Source of the DNA: an uncultured bacterium
GTDB taxonomy: Bacteria; Verrucomicrobiota; Kiritimatiellia; RFP12; UBA1067
Reading direction: 5' to 3'
NCBI GenBank assembly: GCA_902780865.1
Contig: CACZHC010000013.1
Span: 1 to 33,163, forward strand
Length of the DNA: 33,163 nt
A model generated the notes under the pieces. That model searched no databases. It was given only the letters and a program-made list of their open reading frames with translations, and was not told the DNA's origin. Within the stretch, counting starts at the first letter, position 1. Every line of letters starts with the position of its first letter. This document shows positions 7,378 to 22,990 of the stretch, one piece after another. The position numbers and the translations under genes are program-made.

Positions 7378-7459
7378 CGGCGGTGGACGAAGGCTCCTCC
7401 TCGCGGAACCTCGGCGAATACGCCGTATCCATTCGCTCGGACCTTCGCTCCACCGCCAA
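7378..7459 (-). repeat. ~80-bp palindromic dispersed repeat, copy 1
   Basis: This stretch is nearly identical, in reverse complement, to 16483-16564. Its ends are inverted repeats of one another (GGCGGTGGA, then CGAAGG, at one end and their complements at the other), and it holds an inner GGCG-AATA-CGCC stem-loop. It lies directly beside the structured cassette beginning at 7460. It looks like a REP/BIME-type intergenic repeat. No transposase is present. Confidence 0.75.
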
Positions 7460-7774
7460 CTTCGCCGCGCCGCCCGATGAATAAAGGAAGAAGGAACTCC
7501 GAGCGTTAGGGCTCCCGCTACCGCTCCGCAGCTTCACGATGTCCCAACGGCAATTCAGTGCGTCGAATTGTCTTCTTAAGCTGCCTTCGGCAGGGTTGGA
7601 AGACATGACAACCAATCCCTGCGCGCCAGAGGAGGTCTGGAGGAGACCTCCTCCAGCTCAAAGCCGACATGCGTTGCTCAGCGAGACGCGAATGAAGGGT
7701 GCGACGCAAATGAATTCTGCGGAGCGGTAGCGAGAGCCCTGCTGATCGGAGTTAAATTCGGCGGCGCGGCGAAG
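7460..7774 (-). repeat. Structured repeat cassette, copy A (core 7496-7752), bounded by 15-bp inverted repeats
   Basis: The core 7496-7752 has 36-nt imperfect inverted arms (7496-7531 and 7717-7752) around several internal stem-loops. It is about nine-tenths identical by eye to the reverse complement of 22544-22800. Outside the core, CTTCGCCGCGCCGCC at 7460-7474 is the perfect inverse of 7760-7774, an outer pair that copy B does not have. Short ORFs cross it, but their frames are not kept between copies, so it is treated as non-coding. It lies between the divergent pseudouridine synthase and aroKB genes. Confidence 0.8.
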
Positions 7775-7800
7775 GCAGAAGCCACGCCAGCGGGCAAATA

Positions 7801-16425: not shown

Positions 16426-16482
16426 TTTATTTGGGCGGTGTCCGATTGTTGCCATGCGCTTTTAGTCTGTGGCGAAGTGTGG

Positions 16483-16564
16483 TTGGCGGTGGAGCGAAGG
16501 TCCGAGCGAGCGGATACGGCGTATTCGCCGAGGTTCCGCGAGGAGGAGCCTTCGGACGCCGCCA
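16483..16564 (+). repeat. ~80-bp palindromic dispersed repeat, copy 2
   Basis: It is nearly identical to the reverse complement of 7378-7459, with a few substitutions at the flanks. It lies in the 160-bp gap between the converging lepA and mutL genes, where its stem-loops could also serve as a bidirectional transcript end. No T-run typical of an intrinsic terminator follows. Confidence 0.75.
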
Positions 16565-22450: not shown

Positions 22451-22455
22451 AAAAT

Positions 22456-22469
22456 AGGAGTCAGGAGTC
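22456..22469 (+). repeat. AGGAGTC heptad repeat, two units
   Basis: Two perfect AGGAGTC units adjoin the ddl promoter. The same heptad forms a six-unit array at 22927-22968 on the other side of the inserted element and occurs inside aroB at 8815-8835. Confidence 0.8.
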
Positions 22470-22473
22470 AGTA

Positions 22474-22482
22474 CTTAGTAGT
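22474..22482. repeat. 9-bp target-site duplication, left copy
   Basis: CTTAGTAGT here is repeated exactly at 22909-22917, immediately outside the two terminal inverted repeats of the element 22483-22908. Confidence 0.85.
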
Positions 22483-22908
22483 CTGGAGTTTACCCATTTT
22501 TTAGCTTCTGCCGGTCCGCCCCTCGCCAAAGCCGTCGAATTTAACTCCGATCAGCAGGGCTCTCGCTACCGCTCCGCAGAATCACATTTGCTTCGTACCC
22601 TTCATTCGCGTCTCGCTGAGCGACGCATGTCGGCTTTGAGCTGGAGGAGGTCTCCTCCAGACCTCCTCTGGCGTGCGGGGATCGGCTGTCATGTCTTCTA
22701 ACCCTGCCGGAGGCAGCTCAAGAAGACAATTCGACGCACTGAATGACGTTAAGACATCGCGAAGCTGCGGAGCGGTAGCGGGAGCCCTAACGCTCGGAGT
22801 TTCTTTTTGTCAGGAGAAAAACGCCAATTTCACTTGTAAAAACGCACATCATCCTTTATTTATCGGGGTGAGATGCACATTGACAGTCAAAAAATGGGTA
22901 AACTCCAG
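22483..22908. mobile_element. 426-bp non-autonomous inserted element (MITE-like) with perfect 20-bp TIRs
   Basis: The left end CTGGAGTTTACCCATTTTTT (22483-22502) is the exact inverse of 22889-22908, and both ends are flanked by the 9-bp direct repeat CTTAGTAGT. These are the hallmarks of transposition. The interior has no transposase and no convincing ORF; it carries structured cassette copy B (22544-22800). It must be mobilised, if at all, by an enzyme encoded elsewhere. A 9-bp duplication is compatible with several IS families such as IS4 types, so the family is not assigned. It is inserted between the divergent ddl and murCB promoters. Confidence 0.85.
22544..22800 (+). repeat. Structured repeat cassette, copy B
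   Basis: 36-nt arms at 22544-22579 and 22765-22800 are inverse copies at 31 of 36 positions. Inside are a 10-bp perfect stem with loop CCTCC (22644-22668), and a GTCTTCT/AGAAGAC stem (22693-22699 with 22721-22727) enclosing CTGCC-GGA-GGCAG. It matches the reverse complement of 7496-7752 closely. It may be a mobile structured DNA or RNA module; it does not code for a conserved protein. Confidence 0.82.
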
Positions 22909-22917
22909 CTTAGTAGT
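22909..22917. repeat. 9-bp target-site duplication, right copy
   Basis: CTTAGTAGT, an exact copy of 22474-22482, directly follows the right terminal inverted repeat. Confidence 0.85.
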
Positions 22918-22926
22918 CAGTGAAAT

Positions 22927-22968
22927 AGGAGTCAGGGGGCAGGAGTCAGGGGTCAGGAGTCAGGAGTC
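22927..22968 (+). repeat. AGGAGTC heptad array, six units
   Basis: Six 7-bp units (AGGAGTC with AGGGGGC and AGGGGTC variants) run without gaps, ending just before the murCB promoter. Before the element inserted, this array and the two units at 22456-22469 would have been only about 22 bp apart. Confidence 0.88.
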
Positions 22969-22981
22969 AGGACATCGAATT

Positions 22982-22990
22982 TGGTATAAT
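22982..22990 (+). promoter_or_regulatory. Extended -10 promoter of murCB, predicting a leaderless mRNA
   Basis: TGGTATAAT ends at 22990, with 8 nt before the murCB ATG at 22999. MurC's Rossmann motif begins at about residue 7, so a later start is not possible, and no Shine-Dalgarno is visible. Confidence 0.7.

Follow-up and report, generated by a model that had tools for sequence, protein, structure and literature searches.

The window, the whole 33,163-nt stretch of DNA analysed here, is contig C13 of the host genome, one of the Kiritimatiellae (G000; other G numbers denote related genomes), and it holds two copies of a short cassette on opposite strands. Copy 1 lies between genes for an S4/pseudouridine synthase and a shikimate kinase/dehydroquinate synthase fusion, copy 2 between genes for a D-Ala-D-Ala ligase and a MurC/MurB fusion, and the neighbours of the copies are mutually unrelated. 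Sequence comparison gave 93% identity over 257 nt, confirming the repeated cassette that an earlier note had described from the letters of the window, in opposite orientation and about nine-tenths identical. An inverted-repeat search gave arms of 36-37 nt that are 86% complementary (about 31 of 36 positions) in both copies, in agreement with the 36-nt arms matching at 31 positions reported in that note. The features of the cassette are as follows.

7495 to 7753, plus strand: inner structured cassette, copy 1, left arm to right arm (whole-genome search and inverted-repeat search)
22543 to 22801, minus strand: inner structured cassette, copy 2 (same searches)
7495 to 7531 and 7717 to 7753: inverted arms of copy 1
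22543 to 22579 and 22765 to 22801: inverted arms of copy 2
7495 to 7531, plus strand: left arm of copy 1, AACTCCGA, then CGTT, then the nearly invariant core GGGCTCCCGCTACCGCTCCGC
7717 to 7753, minus strand: right arm of copy 1, read on the minus strand as AACTCCGATCAGCAGGGCTCTCGCTACCGCTCCGCAG
7504 to 7549, plus strand: helix inside the left arm, CGTT (7504-7507) with AACG (7546-7549), from the arm covariation test
7678 to 7745, plus strand: helix inside the right arm, TCAGC (7678-7682) with GCTGA (7741-7745), from the same test
7581 to 7593, plus strand: hairpin with a UNCG tetraloop, CTGCC TTC GGCAG, from the sequence
7593 to 7629, plus strand: slot in which the GxxExxY gene sits in ORF-bearing relatives, missing from the 220-nt class
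7637 to 7656, plus strand: conserved hairpin CTGGAGGA-GACC-TCCTCCAG, from comparison of related copies

Both ends of the cassette follow a single family pattern, in which the terminal AACTCCGA and a 21-nt core, GGGCTCYCGCTACCGCTCCGC, are nearly invariant and are separated by variable bases. The intervening four bases are not the same in left and right arms and vary by species, and their complement is found further in. On the left, the pairs were CGTT/AACG (n = 31), GGTT/AACC (n = 20) and, by inspection, one CGGTAT/ATACCG; on the right, given on the arm-reading strand, they were CAGC/GCTG (n = 28), CCGT/ACGG (n = 11), CTGT/ACAG (n = 3) and CGGT/ACCG (n = 1). Complementarity within the arm was kept in 51 of 53 left arms and 43 of 46 right arms, where the maxima over 1000 shuffles were 36 and 32; because related copies are not independent, this covariation is strong yet carries no probability. 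The stem formed across the two arms is also conserved, but is mostly invariant with few double changes. Minimum-energy folds of single arms do not pick the covarying helix, which would therefore need a protein or a particular state in order to form. The earlier note had proposed a search for covariation; it is present, mainly in this short helix inside each arm, which the note had not seen. In two species, the GGTA/TACC at the center of the arm core is replaced, at the same position, by structured inserts of about 70-80 nt (locus L113, approximately 1787-1870; locus L196, near the right arm).

Between the arms, the UNCG tetraloop reads TTCG in copy 1 and TCCG in copy 2. The loop change from GAA to GGA that had been noticed previously does exist, and on the left-to-right strand it is a change of CUUCGG to CUCCGG, i.e., of the N of the tetraloop. 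The 10-bp stem that was said to expose GGAGG/CCTCC can be drawn in both window copies (GAGGAGGTCT/AGACCTCCTC) but is lost in relatives, the stem that is kept being CTGGAGGA/TCCTCCAG, and given this loss an exposed Shine-Dalgarno or anti-Shine-Dalgarno sequence is not supported. No reading frame is conserved across the cassette, as anticipated: copies are 219, 220, 255, 256 or 257 nt long and every frame has stops in most of them. That the cassette is structured and non-coding, is dispersed and keeps its arms was borne out, and a search of Rfam returned no match above the gathering score.

A whole-genome search of G000 yielded about 12 full-span copies at 72-100% identity, which excludes chance, in addition to more diverged or contig-end copies. 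Further copies occur in 9 of 23 same-genus genomes and in closely related MAGs, and outside the genus a single short, marginal match was found, in 1 of 16 same-order genomes. Exact matches to the arms are gut MAGs of Kiritimatiellae/Lentisphaerae. Viral contigs gave no match to the arm or to the GxxExxY protein described below, and plasmids gave none to the cassette. The insertion sites differ between related genomes, even between closely related species.

In many G000 copies similarity extends beyond the cassette, to about 425-427 bp, and this outer unit ends in CTGGAGTTTACCCATTTTTT and its inverse. The inserted DNA at the two window sites comprises the following features.

22483 to 22908, minus strand: 426-bp MITE containing copy 2, with ends CTGGAGTTTACCCATTTTTT...AAAAAATGGGTAAACTCCAG
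22474 to 22482, no strand: target-site duplication CTTAGTAGT, left
22909 to 22917, no strand: target-site duplication CTTAGTAGT, right
about 7459 to 7796, plus strand: insert with copy 1, absent from the orthologous site in G040 (contig C43; orthologous-site comparison)

Direct repeats of 8-9 bp (with at most one mismatch) lie outside the outer ends in eight copies, namely copy 2 (CTTAGTAGT, 9 bp) and seven others. An end search in relatives identified an autonomous 1541-bp insertion sequence with the same 18-20-bp ends in G044 (contig C132); its ORF encodes a DDE_Tnp_1 domain (PF01609) and is weakly nearest to IS4/IS701 models, below NCBIfam cut-offs, making the IS4 assignment a weak one. In the host genome, a search for an autonomous element with these ends gave only contig-end fragments. 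Since the ends are common to the 1541-bp element and target duplications are present, we regard the outer unit as a MITE of an IS4-like element, and the sequence around copy 2 indicates that it, and by the same signs at least seven other copies, spread inside this MITE of about 427 bp. The outer unit of copy 2 has both terminal inverted repeats common to an autonomous insertion sequence and a target duplication of fixed length, while copy 1 is missing both outer ends and has no clear duplication. The ends at 7496 and 7752 assigned in the earlier note therefore hold for the inner unit and not for the inserted DNA, which spans 22483-22908 for copy 2 and approximately 7459-7796 for copy 1.

Other repeats occur around these sites. 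The copy 1 insert abuts one copy of a dispersed repeat of about 80-93 nt (window positions 7379-7471 and 16471-16563) that has inverted ends of its own, GGCGGTGGMCGAAGG...CCTTCGCTCCACCGCC, and dozens of copies in related genomes. At the copy 2 site of G042 the MITE is missing and this different repeat is found in its place. The copy 2 MITE is inserted into runs of a 7-nt repeat (GGAGTCA; window positions 22452-22473 and 22918-22988), and in relatives the inverted arms of S23 genes consist of similar heptad runs. Some G012 cassettes (loci L077, L105 and others) are bounded by outer inverted ends of another type, approximately GGCTCTTCAAAGAATTTAGTGGAA, perhaps representing another MITE family.

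An ordinary MITE could by itself account for the repeat, the cassette being simply the middle of a non-autonomous IS4-like element with an internal inverted repeat that has no role. The shared 18-20-bp ends and the duplications at eight copies are in line with this, as is the fact that every place in G000 with outer ends contains the cassette or is cut off next to it by the end of the contig. Across the whole family, however, this account is already contradicted. The cassette occurs without MITE ends and with unrelated flanks in several species (G012, G001, G009, G010 and G021), its arms are far better conserved between species than their flanks, and the covariation lies inside the arms. In addition, on contig C90 of G042 (locus L291, 155-426) the slot that the cassette occupies in the MITE is filled by a different inverted-repeat cassette, AACTGGTATACTTTTAGCCG...CGGCTAAAAGTATACCAGTT. 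The resemblance to MITEs of IS4-like DDE elements, seen in copy 2 and at least seven others, is thus confined to the outer 427-bp unit, as the inner cassette also occurs alone and has relatives of its own. A MITE is part of the answer for the spread of copy 2, but as a complete explanation we consider it unlikely.

In several relatives, arms of the cassette type are associated with a gene. On contig C34 of G001, a GxxExxY ORF of 135 aa separates two sequences that match cassette nt 1-98 and 134-257 at 78% identity and lie about 525 nt apart, and similar intact ORFs bounded by cassette-type arms are present in G021 (contig C78) and G009 (contig C208). These one-unit full forms of about 0.75 kb have the order arm, nuclease gene, arm, while in G012 (contig C1) and G010 (contig C45) the GxxExxY gene is positioned between two complete cassettes in direct orientation. 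Full-length members thus carry the nuclease gene, inside one cassette or between two; the window copies are without it, and the 220-nt class is without exactly the stretch where the ORF would sit. The ORF products belong to the PDDEXK_3/GxxExxY family (PF13366, E values of 1e-31 to 3e-33; TIGR04256, E values of 1e-33 to 1e-34; 110-119 bits). Among five intact proteins, the others are 70-78% identical to the first, and residues E29, D69, E80 and K82, i.e., the GxxExxY glutamate, the RAD aspartate and the ELK residues, are kept. Values of dN were 0.12-0.27 where dS was saturated or 1.5. Promoter-like and ribosome-binding-like sequences are found inside the element at the ORFs, and a sequence search for a solved structure of the protein returned none. 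In G008/G044 and G040 the GxxExxY gene is broken, with part missing, and holds a nested 202-nt family member; this nested member has two left-type arms and lies within the gene of a larger member (loci L067, 4267-5024; L073; L041). The host genome yielded no intact nuclease gene of the family, its only GxxExxY sequence being a fragment in a different context. At the majority of GxxExxY loci in the genus the arms have other sequences, and the inner arms showed no target duplication.

As the gene-bearing relatives share its ends and their genes are intact, the window cassette is most simply a gene-less form. The earlier note had interpreted it as a structured element not described by the usual feature types, and this is only partly supported: copy 2 is enclosed by an ordinary MITE of the IS4-like kind, and relatives of the inner cassette bear a GxxExxY ORF, which places the cassette with mobile elements and not with free-standing RNAs. 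We therefore favor, as the probable explanation, that the 257-nt cassette belongs, as a non-autonomous and gene-less member, to a family of inverted-repeat elements traveling together with a GxxExxY nuclease gene (PD-(D/E)XK, PF13366/TIGR04256), and that cassettes in G000 spread at least partly as passengers of the MITE. Both ends would offer the same nearly invariant sequence, each folding on itself via the short helix, and the nuclease would presumably recognize them as folded single strands or hairpins. Gene-less copies may then be moved, or maintained, in trans by the GxxExxY protein. In G000, the cassettes would ride at least partly in the 427-bp MITE, moved by the IS4-like DDE transposase via its own 18-20-bp ends and leaving 8-9-bp target duplications. 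GxxExxY could instead be a passenger or stabilizer and not a mobility gene. The sequence evidence, as we read it, covers the dispersal, the MITE-mediated spread of copy 2, the linkage of family and nuclease, and the covarying structure of the ends.

Somewhat less probable again than the MITE alone is a structured regulatory or small RNA of intergenic regions, comparable to the intervening sequence (IVS) of 23S rRNA that is processed by RNase III. Long complementary termini, UNCG tetraloops on one strand and compensatory changes would all suit such an RNA, as would the analogy with the Coxiella IVS (PMC4990558). On the other hand, it has no Rfam match, and its sites differ between closely related species. 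Because the neighbor genes are unrelated and the right ends are commonly followed downstream by promoter-like TATAAT sites, the copies are not leaders of those genes. In structural terms the rRNA IVS is still the closest analogy that we can offer, sharing a length of a few hundred nucleotides, long complementary termini and a small ORF inside; it has been called selfish, with a mobility role proposed and unproven for its ORF (PMC4990558). The cassette differs from it in being intergenic, with no rRNA around the copies at 16 G000 and 2 G012 loci, and in the ORF, which encodes GxxExxY here and an S23 four-helix bundle in the IVS. Intergenic S23 genes in the same order do sit between inverted repeats.

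REPIN-RAYT systems consist of REP doublets with a REP-associated tyrosine transposase, and they appear to be the closest working analogy of the cassette: dispersed gene-less hairpin units, a one-gene partner flanked by the same units, and ends probably recognized as folded DNA. That the cassette is itself a REPIN moved by a RAYT (Y1 HUH) transposase is nevertheless improbable. Points in its favor are the long hairpin that the two inverted arms form, the dispersal of the intergenic copies, the short pairing near the ends, and the Y1_Tnp genes of 17 genomes (24 were searched), the host among them. However, the arms were found at 0 of 30 Y1 loci, and the genes inside or between cassettes encode the PD-(D/E)XK protein GxxExxY, not a Y1 HUH enzyme. 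Two loose arm matches were inside coding sequence, and a Y1/RAYT partner gene (Y1_Tnp, PF01797) was rejected on this ground. The RAYT-like gene of the host (locus L298, contig C21 of G000) is surrounded by repeats of its own, with translated repeated GRDGV/AAKMAA stretches, which are unlike the cassette arms. Nor does the cassette conform to the IS200/IS605 family, which has no terminal inverted repeats and a Y1 transposase inside, as it has inverted arms and an inner PDDEXK_3 gene. An integron-like attC or other tyrosine-recombinase attachment site might be suggested by the imperfection of the inverted arms and by the gene that has a direct copy on each side. It can be practically dismissed, as single copies are spread over many contigs and no inverse core RYYYAAC is seen at the left end.

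Returning to the linkage with GxxExxY, we aligned the upstream flank of each gene with the reverse complement of its downstream flank, accepting inverted repeats at z > 6 and a score of at least 18. They were detected at 39 of 53 GxxExxY loci (21 of 25 in relatives and 18 of 28 in the phylum; of the 21 in relatives, one contains runs of N, and leaving it out gives 18 of 24) and around 21 of 24 S23 genes (PF05635), and at 0 of 27 loci of the ParE toxin control. A direct-orientation control weakens the link with inverted repeats in the close relatives, where direct repeats were found at 14 of 24 GxxExxY loci versus 18 of 24 for inverted ones, which is due at least in part to complete cassettes lying to either side of the gene. 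Elsewhere inverted repeats clearly exceed direct ones (18 versus 4 of 28 for GxxExxY in the phylum, 21 versus 3 of 24 for S23). Arm sequences vary between loci and frequently take the form of 7-9-nt repeat runs. This is a correlation within one phylum. The cassette, read as a gene-less relative of nuclease-bearing elements, suggests that GxxExxY, a widespread gene usually flanked by inverted repeats, is part of its own mobile element.

In the non-subscription literature covered by our search, two papers name the GxxExxY family; neither has a title on mobility or inverted repeats, and one of them mentions it only as a neighbor of a reverse transcriptase. GxxExxY is not mentioned in an analysis of rRNA insertions in CPR bacteria (PMC11270868), and the origin and movement of rRNA intervening sequences are still open (PMC4990558). 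It is tempting to speculate, although we hold this as a minority view, that a widespread, undescribed class of hairpin-ended elements, in which the arms change rapidly, has GxxExxY nucleases as its mobility genes, with S23 four-helix-bundle proteins in the parallel role. The cassette would then be a gene-less form of this class, and 23S rRNA intervening sequences would be its S23 branch, landed in rRNA. No role is known for GxxExxY or S23 genes, which are distributed over many phyla. A family in which some members carry the gene and others do not, and in which the ends are defined and their structures covary, provides concrete substrates for testing whether such small proteins mobilize or maintain their own inverted-repeat elements.
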